Source: Rubripirellula lacrimiformis
GTDB lineage: Bacteria > Planctomycetota > Planctomycetia > Pirellulales > Pirellulaceae
Direction of reading: 5' to 3'
DNA: 64,000 bases
Assembly (NCBI RefSeq): GCF_007741535.1
Contig: NZ_CP036525.1
Coordinates: forward strand, 5,642,001 to 5,706,000
Positions 36,197-44,180 of the stretch are shown piece by piece. Below the pieces are notes generated by a model that saw only the letters and a program-made list of their open reading frames with translations, was not told the DNA's origin and did not search any database. Position 1 is the first letter of the stretch. Each line of letters opens with the position of its first letter. The position numbers and the translations under genes were made by a program.

Positions 36197-37638
36197 ACCG
36201 CAGTCTTTTTAAAACCTGCCAAGGGGTTGCTCCGCTGCGACCTCGGTTGGCCGATTGGATGCAAGAATCGTTAGCACGTCCCGCTGTGCTTGTAGATCTG
36301 GTGCAGCGGCATGGATCCCCATTGCATCTGCATCAACCATCCCGAATGCGCGCCAACATCACGTCGTTGGCGGATGCGGCAAACAGCCGTGACGTTGATC
36401 TGCAAATCTATTTTGCCCACAAAGCCAACAAATGGTTGCCCTACGCTCAACAGGCTCGCCAGGCAGGCATTGGCATCGACGTTGCCAGTGCTGCAGAACT
36501 GCTAGCGGCGATCGAATCGGGATTCGCCGGATCGGACATTGCGGTCACCGCAGCCGTGAAGTCGACTGAACTGATCCGGCAAGCCATCGATGCTGGCGCG
36601 ACCATCGTCGTCGACAACGCCGATCAGTGGCAACGGATCACTGAATCCCTGATCGAGGATCCCCAAGCGACAGCCACGCTGGTACCGCGACTGCGTGGGT
36701 TCGCGCTGGATCACGGTCGGCACCGATCTCGGTTCGGATTCGCGGCCGATTCGGTGGTCAGCCAAATCGATCAAATGATGGCCGCATCTTCCGAATGCAC
36801 CGACCGGATCGTCATCAACGGATTGCACTTCCATTTCGACGGACACACCGCGATGGATCGCGTCGCGGCGATTCTGCAATCGATCGTCATTGCAAAGCAG
36901 CTTCGCCAGTCCGGTCACCGGATCGAATCGATTGATATCGGGGGCGGATTTCCCGTCCAGTACCTTCAGCGAGAGGAAGACTGGATCGAATTCCATCGCC
37001 GAATGGATCAGTCTCTGGGTTGTGTCGCCGCAGATGCCTGCACCGAACCGGTTCTGATGGATGGCCAGTCGTACGGCCGAACGCGAGTGAGTGATTCGAA
37101 TTCAATGGTTCAGACCCAGCGAAACTACCCGACATGGCAACCCCAAGGTGCGGCGGAGTACCTAGGCCGGATCCTGGACACGCCTGGCCTGTGTGCGAGA
37201 TTGCGACAGGCTGGACTGACACTTCGATGCCAGCCCGGACGCGCGCTGTTGGCTGACTGTGGAATGACGATCGCGCGAGTGGACAGTGTCGTTGATGACC
37301 ACAGCTCTGACCCGGCCGGCCGTAACGAACGCAGGCGCAACGTGATCGTCAATCTGGAAATGAATCGCACCAACTGTTCGACAACGTCCGTGGATTTCGC
37401 AGTCGATCCCATCTTGTTGACCGTCGGACGGGGCGAGCGGTCCGAACGGTCACAGGGTGTGTTGGCGGGCTGCTACTGCGCCGAGGACGATTACATCACA
37501 CCGCGGCGATTCTGCTTTACGCCCTCGCCCGTGCCGGGTGACTTATTCGTCTTCCCCAACACCGCCGCCTACCAAATGCATTTCCAAGAATCCGGTGCCC
37601 ACCAAATGCCATTGCCCCGAAACATTGCATCGGATTGA
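36193..37638 (+). CDS. Y4yA-family PLP-dependent decarboxylase-like enzyme
   Basis: 481 residues with a GTG start that overlaps the preceding stop by 4 nt. It has the fold-type III (ornithine/diaminopimelate decarboxylase) pattern: YFAHKANKWLPYAQQARQAG (PLP lysine in AHKAN), GIGIDVASAAELLAAI, LHFHFDGHTAMDR, SIDIGGGFPVQY, LRCQPGRALLADCG and GCYCAEDDYITPR, with a VFPNTAAYQMHF end. These features match the Y4yA group, whose substrate is unknown. Coupling with the secreted hydrolase is unusual and gives no clear pathway. Confidence 0.83.
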   Translation: MNRSLFKTCQGVAPLRPRLADWMQESLARPAVLVDLVQRHGSPLHLHQPSRMRANITSLADAANSRDVDLQIYFAHKANKWLPYAQQARQAGIGIDVASAAELLAAIESGFAGSDIAVTAAVKSTELIRQAIDAGATIVVDNADQWQRITESLIEDPQATATLVPRLRGFALDHGRHRSRFGFAADSVVSQIDQMMAASSECTDRIVINGLHFHFDGHTAMDRVAAILQSIVIAKQLRQSGHRIESIDIGGGFPVQYLQREEDWIEFHRRMDQSLGCVAADACTEPVLMDGQSYGRTRVSDSNSMVQTQRNYPTWQPQGAAEYLGRILDTPGLCARLRQAGLTLRCQPGRALLADCGMTIARVDSVVDDHSSDPAGRNERRRNVIVNLEMNRTNCSTTSVDFAVDPILLTVGRGERSERSQGVLAGCYCAEDDYITPRRFCFTPSPVPGDLFVFPNTAAYQMHFQESGAHQMPLPRNIASD

Positions 37639-37760
37639 AAAACGTGCTGGGAATGAACACCGTGCTGGCACCATGGATGCGATCGCATCGGCAACGCACA
37701 GGAAATATCTGTCGTAGTGGGATTCGCCAGAATTCCTGACACTGATCGATCGTACATTGC

Positions 37761-39131
37761 TTATTCGGCATCACGTTTTAATTTGCGATAGATCGTTTTG
37801 CGGTCCAGTCCCAAGATACGAGCCGCCTGTGATTGGTTTCCACCGGTCGCTTCGATGACGTGGTTGATGTATCGCTGTTCCAGTTCCTCCATCGACACCA
37901 ATTCGGTGGGGTCCAGCCCACCGATCACGATCGTGCCGCCACGAAAGTTCTGGATTTTTTCTGGCAGGTCCTCGATCGTAATCTTGTCGTACCGAGTCAG
38001 GGCGACCGCACGTTCCATCACATTTCGCAATTCACGGACGTTGCCGGGCCACGAGTAGCCAAGCAGCTTTTCGGCGACGCCGTCGGCGAGCCCAGTCACC
38101 GGCTTGTTCTCGTTGGTGGCAAACTGCTTCAGAAAATGCTCGGCCAGACGCAGGATGTCGGTACCGCGTGACCTTAGCGGGGGCAGTTCCAAACCAATGA
38201 CATTGATCCGATAATACAGGTCTTCGCGAAACCGCCCTTCGGCAACGGCCGTTTCCAGGTCGCGATTGGTGGCCGCCAGCACGCGAACATCAAACCGCGA
38301 TTCCTTGTCGCTGCCGACCGGGCGAACCTTTCGTTCTTCCAGAGCGCGCAGCAGTTTGGCCTGCATCGAAATCGGCATCTCGCCCATCTCGTCCAACAGC
38401 AGCGTGCCACCGTCGGCTTCGACGAACAACCCACGTCGTTCGCCCCTGGCATCGGTGAACGCGCCTTTCACGTGACCAAACAGTTCGCTTTCAAGCAAAG
38501 TTTCCGTCAACGCCGCGCAGTTCACCGCCACGAACGGTTGGTTGGATCGGCGGCTGCCCGCATGAATCGACCTAGCAACCACCTCTTTGCCGGTCCCGCT
38601 TTCGCCGGTGATCAACACCGAAGCGTCCGAAGCAGCCACCTGGGACAATTGACCATACAAGGTGCGCATCGCAGGGCTCTGGCCTAGTACTTCGCCGAAC
38701 GACGATGTCGATTCCTGGTTCAATTCCAACAACCGAACCTGTTGTGTCAGTTGGCGGTGCTGGATCGCGCGTCCCAGTGTGATCGACAACAAATCCATTT
38801 CGATCGGTTTGGTGATAAAGTCGTAGGCGCCTGCGCGCATGGCCGCGACGGCCGTTTCTAGAGTCCCGAACGCGGTCATCACGATCACCGGGATGTCGGG
38901 GCGTAACGCATTGATCTGAGCACAGAATTCCAGACCGGTCGTGCCCGGCATTCGAACATCGGTCAAGATCACGTCAAAGTTCTCTTGATGCAACGCTTCG
39001 ATCGCATCGGCCGCCGACGTAAACCACCGGCTCGCGATCCCACGCAGCCGCAAATCGGTTTCAATCAGCTCGCACATGTTGCGTTCGTCATCGACGATAA
39101 GAACTTGTGGCTTCGAATCTTTCGAACTCAT
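37761..39131 (-). CDS. Sigma-54-dependent response regulator (NtrC/ZraR family)
   Basis: 456 residues: receiver domain 1-125 with phospho-acceptor D58 ([13 protein letters not shown]), AAA+ domain ~145-380 with Walker A GESGTGKE, the sigma-54 loop, Walker [13 protein letters not shown] and R-finger region, and a Fis-type helix-turn-helix at the end ([20 protein letters not shown]). The canonical GAFTGA loop reads GAFTDA, a natural variant in this family. It activates sigma-54 promoters when phosphorylated by the kinase whose gene overlaps it by 4 nt. A -24/-12 promoter lies upstream of the neighbouring protease gene. Confidence 0.94.
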
Positions 39132-40510
39132 GACGCCTCCGAGACGTTGACGTGTGCTGGTAAGGTGACGCGGAACGTGGTCCCACGCTCGGGATGACTT
39201 TCAACGTGAATGTCGCCCCCATGTTCTCGCACGATTCCATAGGCGATGGAAAGCCCCAGACCGGTCCCCTGCCCAACGTCCTTGGTGGTGAAGAACGGTT
39301 CAAAAATATGCGGCAGCGATTCTTGGGCGATCCCTTCGCCAGTATCGGCAACCGTCAGTGTGATGGGGCCATCATCCGACGATTGATCCAGAACGACCGT
39401 CAGCGTCCCGCCATCGGGCATCGCCGCAATCGCATTGGTGATCAGGTTGGTCATCACTTGCTGCATCTGAGCGGCGTCGGCGCGAGTCGACACGGTGGGT
39501 TTGCAAGCTTGAAAATCAAGCTCGACGCCAGCATGTTCGGCCAACGATCGAGTCAGGTCGCAGGTGGTTTTTACCACTTGCACCAAATCCACGACTTCAT
39601 GGGGGGAAGGTTTCTGGCGGGCAAAGTCCATCAATTGGCGGATGATCCCCGTCATCCGCTCGGCCTCGCTGTGAATCGTTTGGGCGCTGGAACGAATTTC
39701 TTCGTCCGACAGTTTTCCGCTGGCAATCAAACCTGCCCGCCCCGACACCACGTTCAGCGGCGTCCCCAGTTCGTGAGCCATGCCGGCCGCCAACGTCCCG
39801 ATCGTCCCCAATCGGTCGGCGTGCCGAATCGTATCACGCTGTTGGCTAATCCGATGGCTCATCTGACTGATGGCAAGCGCCAAACGTCCCAATTCATCAT
39901 GGCTGTTCAATACCGGCTGTTGGTCCAACTTGCCATCACCGATTTGATTGACTTGTCCGATCAGCTTCGCCAAAGGCTTTCCAACCAATTGCACACCCCC
40001 ACAGTAAATCACGATCGCAGAAAACGCGGCCACACCGATCAGAGACAGGACCGAAGTCAACATCGACTGACGTACAAATTCGTCCGGCCCATTCATGGGT
40101 TCGGCAATTTCAACTGCCCCGGACGCATCCTCGCCAAGCGTGATCGGTACGTAGGAATAGGCTGTTCGAGTGCCGTCGGCATCCGTGATCGACACGCTGG
40201 ACATCTGACGCGATGTGACTTTGGTCTTGGCGTCGGGCGATGCAACTTCCTGGCCATCGATCCATCGCACTTCAGGACCGTTGATCTTTTGAGTCGATAT
40301 TTCCAGCGCCTGCCGAATCGTCACCCGACCACCCTCCTGATACGCCGTCTGGATTGCTGGTGCCAGGGCCTGGGCCAAGTCCAAGGCATGAGATTGTCGA
40401 CGTTGTTCTTCCCAGTCGTGCTGGCGGCGAATCGTTTGCCAGGCGAACAGGGACACGATCGCCAGCACTCCGACCAGGAACACGAGAATCAATTTGGCGG
40501 CTAACTTCAT
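39128..40510 (-). CDS. Membrane sensor histidine kinase (NtrB/ZraS-like)
   Basis: 460 residues from ATG 40510 (the extension to 40552 lacks a signal). Two helices (residues ~5-24 and ~155-180) enclose a periplasmic sensor domain of ~130 residues; HAMP follows, then the DHp helix with [20 protein letters not shown] (phosphorylated His) and an HATPase domain with [37 protein letters not shown]. It would sense an envelope signal and phosphorylate the response regulator. It overlaps that gene (ATGA) and lies 147 nt downstream of htrA. Confidence 0.92.
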
Positions 40511-40657
40511 GCGAACGAGTTCGATCGAGAAACGGAAAAGAGAAACGGCCAATATCCATTCTAAACGGACATCGGCCGCCCTACGTCCCCAGCGGCCAAC
40601 CGGTTGCCCGATTGCCGCTGGAAATCAGTTGTCAGTCGCCTCGTTGGCGACATGGCT

Positions 40658-42214
40658 TTACTTCGCAACCACGACAAAACGCGATCCAGCGTCGCTGCGT
40701 ACCAGCAACAGCACCGATCCATCGGTATCAGCCGCAAGCGCCTTTTCAAAATCCTCGGCTGTGGCCACGTTCTCTCGGTTGACCTGGGCAATCACCATGC
40801 CTGGTTCCAGCCCCGCTTCTGCGGCCGGGCTTTCATCCTGGACGCTGGTGATCACGACACCCACCTGATCTTCCATATCAAGTTGCTTGGCAACGTCTGC
40901 GGTCAGAGATCGGATTTCGACCCCCAATGACTTCATCTTCACGCCCTCGACGGGTTTCGACGAAGTTTTGGCCGCAAAGGTATCGGGAGCCGATTCACCA
41001 ACGTAGGACAACTGGATCGATTTGCCATCTCGGATGACATCGACCGTCAGTTCGGTCCCCGATTTGGACCGTTCGACAGCAAGCTGTAATTGTTGCGGAG
41101 TGGTGACGCTTTGACCGCCAAAGCGGACAATCACGTCGCCAGTTTTGAACCCAGCTTTGGCCGCAGGTGTTTCAGGAAACACTTGGTTGATTGCCACACC
41201 GCTTTTCGGTGCCACCCCCAACTGGGATGCCAGTTCGTAGTTGACCGGTTGGATACTGACCCCCAAATACGATCGGTTGACGTGACCGGACGATACCAAT
41301 TGACCGCTGACCCAACTTGCTAGATTCGAAGGGACAGCAAATCCGACACCGTTATTGCCACCGCCGCGTGATGAGATCGCAGTGTTGATACCGATGATCT
41401 CGCCCTTCAGGTTCACCAAAGGCCCGCCGCTGTTGCCTGGGTTGATCGCGGCATCGGTTTGGATAAAGTTTTCGCGGTCGGTGATCCCGATGCCACGATT
41501 CTTTGCACTGACGATGCCGGTGGTCACCGTGCCTTCGAGCCCGAATGGCTGCCCCAGCGCGACGACCCAATCGCCGACTTCCATCGAATCACTGTCGCCG
41601 ATCTTGGCCGCCACCAAACTGGAATCGCCCTGAAAGCGAACCACGGCGATGTCGGTCTGAGGATCGGTAAGCACTTCGGTGGCTTCGAATTCACGGCCAT
41701 CATGCGTTTTGATGATGACCTTGCCACCACCGGCGACCACGTGGTTGTTGGTCAACACGATGCCAGCGGAATCGATGATCACACCGGATCCGATCCCACC
41801 CTGCGAACGTGGACTCTGTTGCGGCACTCCGTTTGGAAACATCTGGTCCAACGGCATGCCTTCAAAAGGGGTGCCCTTGAACGGGTTGGCACCGGGGGCT
41901 TGGCCCCGTCTGGGCTTGTTTGCCGTGGCTTGCCAAGAATCATCCGGACGATTCTCGATTGCAACGACCGCTGGAAGCACATGGCTTGCCACATTTCGGA
42001 ATGCATCGGAGAGTGCATTTGCTACATCCAGTGATTCCGGTGCAAGCACCTGAGGGCTACTGGAGTGCATCGTCTTGGCCGGTGCGTTGGTGGCCACCGT
42101 CGTCTTGACAGGCGTCGTAGTCGATGGTGTCGCTGCGGTCAGCAACCCGACGCTGCCGACGGTCAAAGGAGCGGCAACTAACGCGGCGAATAATTTGGAT
42201 CTTGATCGTTTCAT
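40658..42214 (-). CDS. DegP/HtrA-type periplasmic serine protease
   Basis: 518 residues from the ATG at 42214, which has AGGA at 8-nt spacing; the longer frame to 42373 lacks one. A signal peptide or anchor is followed by a trypsin-like domain with triad H158 (VLTNNHVVAG), D188 (TDIAVVRF) and S262 (NPGNSGGPLV). Two PDZ domains follow: GVSIQPVNYELASQLGVAPK and, near the C-terminus, LGVEIRSLTADVAKQLDMED. It degrades or refolds damaged proteins in the periplasm. The upstream sigma-54 promoter and downstream two-component genes suggest stress-regulated expression. Confidence 0.94.
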   Translation of the reverse strand: MKRSRSKLFAALVAAPLTVGSVGLLTAATPSTTTPVKTTVATNAPAKTMHSSSPQVLAPESLDVANALSDAFRNVASHVLPAVVAIENRPDDSWQATANKPRRGQAPGANPFKGTPFEGMPLDQMFPNGVPQQSPRSQGGIGSGVIIDSAGIVLTNNHVVAGGGKVIIKTHDGREFEATEVLTDPQTDIAVVRFQGDSSLVAAKIGDSDSMEVGDWVVALGQPFGLEGTVTTGIVSAKNRGIGITDRENFIQTDAAINPGNSGGPLVNLKGEIIGINTAISSRGGGNNGVGFAVPSNLASWVSGQLVSSGHVNRSYLGVSIQPVNYELASQLGVAPKSGVAINQVFPETPAAKAGFKTGDVIVRFGGQSVTTPQQLQLAVERSKSGTELTVDVIRDGKSIQLSYVGESAPDTFAAKTSSKPVEGVKMKSLGVEIRSLTADVAKQLDMEDQVGVVITSVQDESPAAEAGLEPGMVIAQVNRENVATAEDFEKALAADTDGSVLLLVRSDAGSRFVVVAK

Positions 42215-42283
42215 GTTTAACATCCTGAACATTGAATTGTTTGATAAGCAATGTGCCGTAACCTTCGGCGACGGACCGACTAA

Positions 42284-42300
42284 ATGCACACTGCGTGCCA
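42284..42300 (-). promoter_or_regulatory. Sigma-54 (-24/-12) promoter of htrA
   Basis: Minus-strand sequence TGGCACGCAGTGTGCAT matches the sigma-54 consensus TGGCACG-N4-TTGCA in nearly all informative positions, with exactly ten bases between the GG and GC pairs. Transcription would start near 42274, about 60 nt before the htrA ATG. The neighbouring regulator has a sigma-54 interaction domain. Confidence 0.75.
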
Positions 42301-42318
42301 TCACCCAAAACAACGCCA

Positions 42319-42331
42319 AAACACTGTGTTT
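42319..42331. promoter_or_regulatory. Candidate operator palindrome upstream of htrA
   Basis: AAACAC-T-GTGTTT is a perfect 6-bp inverted repeat 19 bp upstream of the -24 element. It could be a Fis-type binding site for the adjacent response regulator, though activator sites are usually further upstream. Only one copy is seen. Confidence 0.35.
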
Positions 42332-42455
42332 CGCGAGGCGAATGCGATTGACAGGAAACAATCCACGTGGCAAGACGCCCTACCGAGGCAAGATGCCCCA
42401 ACCGTATCAGCATTGAAGGGTGATGAGTTGATGGCTGGGGCTAGAGGCTGTTCTT

Positions 42456-42525
42456 GGGGAAGGGGAAGTGGGGAAGAAGGCAGGTGGGGGAGAAGAGATG
42501 TGGGGAAGAAGAGATGTGGGGGAGA
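42456..42525 (+). other. Purine-rich, G-run tract
   Basis: Repeated GGGGAAG and GGGGGAGAAG units (several runs of four to five G) on the plus strand, which could form a G-quadruplex or be a slipped A/G repeat. It lies about 240 bp upstream of htrA. No coding frame is credible. Confidence 0.5.
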
Positions 42526-42528
42526 AGG

Positions 42529-42670
42529 CAAGTTCGAGTTCGAGTTTAAGTTCGAGTTTAAGTTTTCAAGCCGCTTTTTGGTCCGCAACTTGAACTTGAA
42601 CTTGAACTTGAACTTGAACTTGAACTTGAACTTGAACTTGAACTTGAACTTGAACTTGAACTCGAACTCG
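42529..42670. repeat. Inverted hexamer microsatellite arms forming a long hairpin
   Basis: Left arm (42529-42567) repeats (A/G)AGTT(C/T); after a ~20-bp loop the right arm (42587-42670) is CTTGAA about twelve times then CTCGAA. The arms are reverse complements, so ~35 bp can pair. The frames made of LNLNLN are simple-repeat artefacts. Confidence 0.85.
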
Positions 42671-42780
42671 GGTTCTCCAGCCGACTCGACCGTGACGGAC
42701 GACTGCCGCCGCCTGCGAAGAGGCGATCCGCGTGATCCCAGATGGAATCACTTGGGGGCGGTTCGGTCCCATAGTAAGAA

Positions 42781-42815
42781 AAGTTCGAGTTTAAGTTCGA
42801 GTTCGAGTTTAAGTT
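42781..42815. repeat. GAGTTC/AAGTTC hexamer repeat
   Basis: About six hexamers (AAGTTC, GAGTTT, AAGTTC, GAGTTC, GAGTTT, AAGTT) near the end of the nhaD-like gene, same family as 42529-42670 and 55021-55056. The rest of 42671-42868 shows no gene. Confidence 0.75.
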
Positions 42816-43921: not shown

Positions 43922-44180
43922 GCACGATTTCCCCCGAACGCAGTGACCGAATGAGCGTTAGTCGTCCGTGATCGGATCGACCGTTATCGTGCGAATTGCG
44001 GTCTCAATCGCGTCTTGCCCTCGATCCCTGATCGATCCGTCCCACGCCAAGGCCAAGATCGCGGCATCCCGTTGGCACGACGGATGCAATGGGGATGGTC
44101 CTGCAAACTGAAACGTCAGGCACCACTACATCCAACGGTGTCTGGACCGACGGATTTCAAATCATGAAAGGAACATCACC

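Follow-up and report, generated by a model that had tools for sequence, protein, structure and literature searches.

The htrA gene of Rubripirellula lacrimiformis very likely belongs to an envelope-maintenance regulon under sigma-54 and an NtrC-type two-component system, which would drive an autoregulated htrA-kinase-regulator operon via a tandem UAS. Comparison with related genomes revealed that the promoter and the UAS are conserved, that the UAS co-occurs with the regulator, and that the combination of UAS and promoter is shared with other genes. The window analyzed here is a stretch of 64,000 nucleotides (G000:C1:5642001-5706000) in the 8.54-Mb genome of this organism, whose named close relatives are Pirellulaceae such as Stieleria and Rhodopirellula. 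It contains the following features:

37761-39131, minus strand: gene for an NtrC-type response regulator with receiver, sigma-54 AAA+ domain, Fis-type HTH and GAFTDA motif (Pfam)
39128-40510, minus strand: gene for a membrane sensor histidine kinase with HAMP, HisKA and HATPase_c domains (Pfam); likely start ATG at 40510
40658-42214, minus strand: htrA, encoding a Do/DegP-type serine protease of 518 aa with two PDZ domains (Pfam Trypsin_2 and PDZ); ATG at 42214
42285-42300, minus strand: sigma-54 -24/-12 promoter TGGCACGCAGTGTGCA, assigned by motif match and conservation in relatives
42319-42331, minus strand: palindrome AAACACAGTGTTT between UAS and -24, with AAACAC/GTGTTT half-sites that recur in relatives
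42367-42381, minus strand: putative UAS dyad 2 AGGGCGTCTTGCCAC, 18 bp from dyad 1, an offset (+18) that recurs in many relatives
42385-42399, minus strand: putative UAS dyad 1 GGGGCATCTTGCCTC, found by motif search, with its centre at about -118 from the predicted start

The kinase and regulator genes follow downstream of htrA on the same strand, with an overlap of 4 bp between kinase stop and regulator start. The htrA product scored 441.8 bits against the NCBIfam model TIGR02037 (Do/DegP-HtrA; cut-off 416.2) and is thereby placed in the DegP/HtrA family. The kinase start was set at the ATG because the sequence MKLAAK is common to the aligned orthologues; a structure model of the kinase (mean pLDDT 74.7, sensor region about 41-72) was too poor for naming the signal. 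The first-pass annotation had described the neighboring genes as a kinase and an NtrC-type regulator with a sigma-54 AAA+ domain, and Pfam confirmed this, as receiver, Sigma54_activat AAA+ and Fis-type HTH, the architecture of NtrC-type enhancer-binding proteins, are all present in the linked regulator. The whole genome contains a single match for rpoN (6.5e-63). Between htrA and the kinase gene, a terminator-like hairpin at 40581-40543 might attenuate the operon; such matches in the region stay below the number expected by chance. Long runs of hexanucleotide repeats (AACTTG/AAGTTC) lie at 42527-42790, directly upstream of the htrA control region. The window's htrA is 76% identical to that of a genome from another genus (G013) versus 61% and 57% for two genomes of the same genus (G046 and G092); transfer or old paralogy is possible for the operon (37761-42214).

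The sigma-54 promoter in front of htrA had already been proposed in the first-pass annotation. The minus-strand sequence from 42300 to 42284 is TGGCACGCAGTGTGCAT, as written there: GG (42299-42298) and GC (42287-42286) are separated by ten bases, and the site has one mismatch to TGGCACN5TTGCW. From the position of the -12 element, the transcription start of htrA is predicted at about 42274, resulting in a leader of 60 nt. A single site of this kind proves little on its own, since matches with at most one mismatch are found 410 times genome-wide versus 531 times for a reversed-pattern control and thus occur at background frequency. The chance of a sense-strand match in a given leader of about 117 bp is roughly 0.3% at the genome-wide rate; single-site significance was dropped as evidence because one-mismatch sites are not enriched genome-wide. 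This background frequency would fit a chance match in front of a gene that in fact depends on a sigma-70 or ECF promoter. A second one-mismatch site at 44073-44088 on the plus strand, with no plausible plus-strand gene close behind, is probably due to chance.

The significance of the htrA site derives from its conservation in relatives. Homologues of htrA were gathered from 119 genomes of the family and their leaders were read, which resulted in 39 distinct loci with linked kinase-regulator genes and 29 unlinked loci. The pattern GGCAC-N6-TGC is found within 500 bp upstream of htrA at 28 of the 39 linked loci, a count that comes from related genomes and not from independent samples. With gaps of 2-5 or 7-12 bases the pattern appears at 0-4 of these 39 loci, and with a gap of 6 on the opposite strand at none. 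Two loci of the same genus that were counted as lacking the promoter at 500 bp (L041 and L043) have GGCAC-N6-TGC slightly farther out, at positions -506 and -521 relative to the matched start. In the alignments GG, CAC and TGC are kept while the spacer bases vary, and such fixation of bases, spacing and strand across relatives is what characterizes a sigma-54 promoter. The refuting outcome named in the first-pass annotation, a lack of -24/-12 conservation in relatives, was thus not observed. The chance-match explanation is largely refuted, because the site keeps its position, its strand and the 10-bp spacing throughout the family, and a scan of 37600-42600 for promoters of the sigma-70-like type found none before htrA; we consider it scarcely credible. 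At seven loci where htrA and the kinase genes point away from each other (L047, L049-L054), a conserved NGGCACNNNATTCGCA-like sequence is oriented towards the kinase and is perhaps a second sigma-54 promoter.

The main regulatory element besides the sigma-54 promoter, judged from comparison of the leaders, is the tandem dyad at 42399-42367, a putative activator site that the first-pass annotation had missed. A search for palindromic motifs upstream of the promoters yielded GGGGCANNNTGCCCC, which at many loci forms a tandem pair with a center-to-center distance of 18 bp; at loci of the divergent type, the same search within 110 bp revealed no consistent UAS, which sits 200-310 bp away. When 800 bp upstream were scanned with a UAS weight matrix at a score of at least 15, sites were detected at 34 of the 39 linked and 3 of the 29 unlinked loci, versus 0.15 loci with permuted columns. 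The linked count is partly circular, as 11 of the tested loci had served to build the matrix, whereas unlinked loci, permuted columns and other genes are free of this circularity. A pair of UAS and promoter is present at 33 of the 39 linked loci; at four of the others no clear pair is seen, and the remaining two have no more than a degenerate promoter. Depending on the locus, UAS and -24 are 75 to 314 bp apart, as expected for an enhancer that acts by looping.

In the window's own genome, an exact match to GGGGCANNNTGCCYC occurs only once, as dyad 1 of htrA, and on account of this single copy, a chance or repeat origin of the sequence was rejected for this genome. Of 15 looser GNGGCA-N3-TGCCNC sites inspected in this genome, only that of htrA adjoins a convincing promoter. 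In another genome (G037), GGGGCATCTTGCCCC/GGGGCAAGATGCCCC occurs about 40 times, on many contigs and partly in arrays, and the copies appear to constitute a repeat family similar to the UAS dyad.

The palindrome AAACAC-T-GTGTTT, for which the plus strand at 42319-42331 reads AAACACTGTGTTT, had been suggested as the binding site of the regulator. The palindrome exists, and its half-sites were observed 14 times in the 65 bp before -24 of 25 leaders, versus about 0.65 expected. The complete form is absent from the tested relatives' leaders and present in the window only; as the best activator site it was therefore rejected in favor of the UAS tandem at 42399-42367. The palindrome is probably a second conserved element, perhaps the site of another factor or a bend. 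A related stretch such as AAAACACCCTGTTTT precedes moxR at one locus (L172).

The linked kinase and NtrC-type regulator are the probable activator of the htrA promoter, as the first-pass annotation had assumed, because the UAS in front of the promoter tends to occur where the regulator is present. A search of 18 genomes for regulator orthologues gave no match at the chosen threshold in 13 of them. The htrA homologues of these 13 genomes belong to the unlinked loci, few of which have the UAS (3/29). In one genome (G087), the regulator is encoded about 150 kb from htrA, and UAS and promoter are retained at htrA (L042). An exception is G019, in which the regulator is present and the htrA homologue has neither UAS nor promoter. 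Neighboring htrA and kinase-regulator genes are found on the same strand, in divergent orientation or with the pair upstream, and this variety of arrangements suggests selection for linkage. Outside the phylum, none of the relatives of the regulator, at up to 46% identity, has an htrA neighbor.

Alternatively, the promoter could depend on sigma-54 and respond to a different NtrC-type protein, the linked pair being merely co-transcribed. Further NtrC-type matches exist in the same genome, and at five loci (L060, L061, L072, L079 and L082) good sigma-54 sites precede htrA homologues that are not linked to the kinase-regulator pair. These homologues may be controlled by another activator: the UAS is absent at L060, L061 and L072 despite the good sigma-54 sites, and no regulator orthologue was found in the genomes of L060 and L061, which are two of the 13 mentioned above. 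Sigma-54 control of htrA is thus not exclusive to the linked activator. For the htrA promoter of the window, a different activator is very unlikely, because the UAS follows the linked regulator and, in other lineages, the two have shifted jointly to MoxR operons (see below).

Activation by the linked regulator also has to be reconciled with its loop motif, which is GAFTDA and not GAFTGA in the window and in most orthologues. GAFTDA is listed among the variants expected to keep sigma-54 activation in D. vulgaris (PMC4641369), while its effect in VfmH has been called unknown (PMC10714721). In dozens of genomes, regulators with GAFTDA coexist with conserved -24/-12 promoters, which argues for a functional motif.

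In relatives, the combination of UAS and sigma-54 promoter is also found before genes other than htrA. It precedes a Peptidase_M50 (site-2-protease-like) gene in five genomes (L197, L198, L199, L200 and L202), with the promoter only at L201, and MoxR-DUF58(-Bat) operons in four genomes (L233, L235, L236 and L237), with the UAS only before the MoxR-DUF58 operon at L227. In G166, G298, G043 and G018, the orthologous kinase-regulator genes adjoin a MoxR-DUF58 operon instead of htrA. G166 and G298 belong to another family of the class, with a regulator that is 75% identical; their kinase-regulator genes lie downstream of the MoxR operon, at the start of which lie a tandem UAS at +18 bp and TGGCATGCAAGATGCT. 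In G166, this operon encodes MoxR, DUF58, BatA-like, VWA/TPR and BatD-like proteins. In G043 and G018, from the same family as the window, UAS, promoter and MoxR-DUF58 genes are located directly behind the regulator gene. These loci show that the system is located next to htrA in some genomes and next to MoxR in others, under one and the same switch, and those of G166 and G298 provide the strongest support, at the level of sequence, for additional targets. No further convincing target was found in the window's own genome, where htrA alone shows the pair of UAS and promoter: the MoxR orthologue there has neither element, and the best match to the M50 protein is a distant homologue. A possible further member of the regulon is encoded in G028, where the gene for a predicted 83-aa protein of unknown function is preceded by a tandem UAS and a sigma-54 site (L186:2756-3134).

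From these comparisons and the known behavior of NtrC-type proteins, we infer a mechanism comprising the signal, phosphorylation, binding, transcription start, operon transcription and stress function. htrA and the kinase and regulator genes would form one operon transcribed from the sigma-54 promoter. The membrane kinase would sense a periplasmic or envelope signal and phosphorylate the regulator, which would then bind the tandem dyad at 42399-42367 as an enhancer. The bound regulator would loop to the RNA polymerase-sigma-54 complex at 42300-42285, where its AAA+ ATPase would open the promoter. The output would be HtrA together with more kinase and regulator, that is, positive autoregulation. 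In relatives, the same regulator would also drive the M50 site-2-protease-like gene and the MoxR-DUF58/Bat operon, and these extra targets would make the circuit an envelope-maintenance regulon. The first-pass annotation had envisaged a distinct envelope-stress circuit of htrA; sigma-54 control of htrA is supported, but the circuit reaches beyond htrA in relatives, and its role in envelope stress is presumed.

The operon could also be a metal- or metabolite-response system of the ZraSR/AtoSC kind, with the same promoter mechanism, a different signal and HtrA as one tool. The closest NCBIfam models include AtoC/AtoS and ZraR/ZraS, all of them below cut-off, and ZraR responds to zinc (PMC7657598). 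The target set of the relatives (HtrA, M50 protease and MoxR-DUF58/Bat), however, resembles protein and envelope maintenance, and no metal gene is among the targets examined, so that this reading appears rather unlikely, while retaining more weight than the other two alternatives. For the envelope-maintenance regulon, a wider proposal is evenly poised between true and false: in Pirellulaceae and some other planctomycetes, the pair may be a main regulator of envelope stress that corresponds, on the sigma-54 side, to sigma-E/Cpx and directly controls HtrA, the M50 site-2 protease and the MoxR-DUF58-Bat complex through one tandem enhancer motif. The proposed regulon, if real, would be well defined and open to testing, as its activator is named, its tandem enhancer motif spans 33 bp and its targets are predicted. 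It would also bring HtrA, the protease itself, under the control of sigma-54 and connect MoxR-DUF58/Bat operons, about whose role little is understood, with a stress circuit. The tandem motif can be used for scanning other planctomycete genomes.

A literature search limited to open-access papers found no description of a sigma-54/HtrA/NtrC envelope-stress regulon or of the regulation of envelope protein quality control in planctomycetes. In Escherichia coli, the sigma factor of degP is sigma-E, and CpxR is an OmpR-type regulator. The circuit proposed here resembles the control of E. coli degP by sigma-E and Cpx in the stress induction of a DegP/HtrA protease (PMC2731931), a stress role that is presumed in the present case, and differs from it in the sigma factor and the class of regulator. 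An htrA gene of R. baltica (RB12752), which is not necessarily the kinase-regulator-linked orthologue, is induced by cold shock (PMC2754498). The PspF-psp system likewise exerts sigma-54 control of extracytoplasmic stress through an enhancer-binding protein (PMC2731931). PspF is held off by PspA, whereas the regulator in the window contains a receiver domain and is partnered by a kinase; with 275.1 bits versus a cut-off of 443.55 for the PspF equivalog model, it is not assigned to PspF. In D. vulgaris, the sigma-54 response regulators DVU1419 and DVU3381 have been assigned to envelope stress and their sites are conserved in relatives (PMC4641369, PMC3333781), but their targets are described as hypothetical genes, with no mention of DegP or HtrA (PMC3333781). 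ZraP-ZraSR of E. coli and Salmonella is similar as an autoregulated two-component system with a sigma-54 NtrC-type regulator, a link to envelope stress and a periplasmic quality-control target (PMC7657598). Scores for the ZraR and ZraS equivalog models (433.6 versus a cut-off of 760 and 179.5 versus 479 bits) place the pair outside ZraSR. The window's regulator further differs in carrying GAFTDA, and the target of ZraSR is the chaperone ZraP, whereas here it would be the protease HtrA, joined in relatives by M50 and MoxR/Bat.
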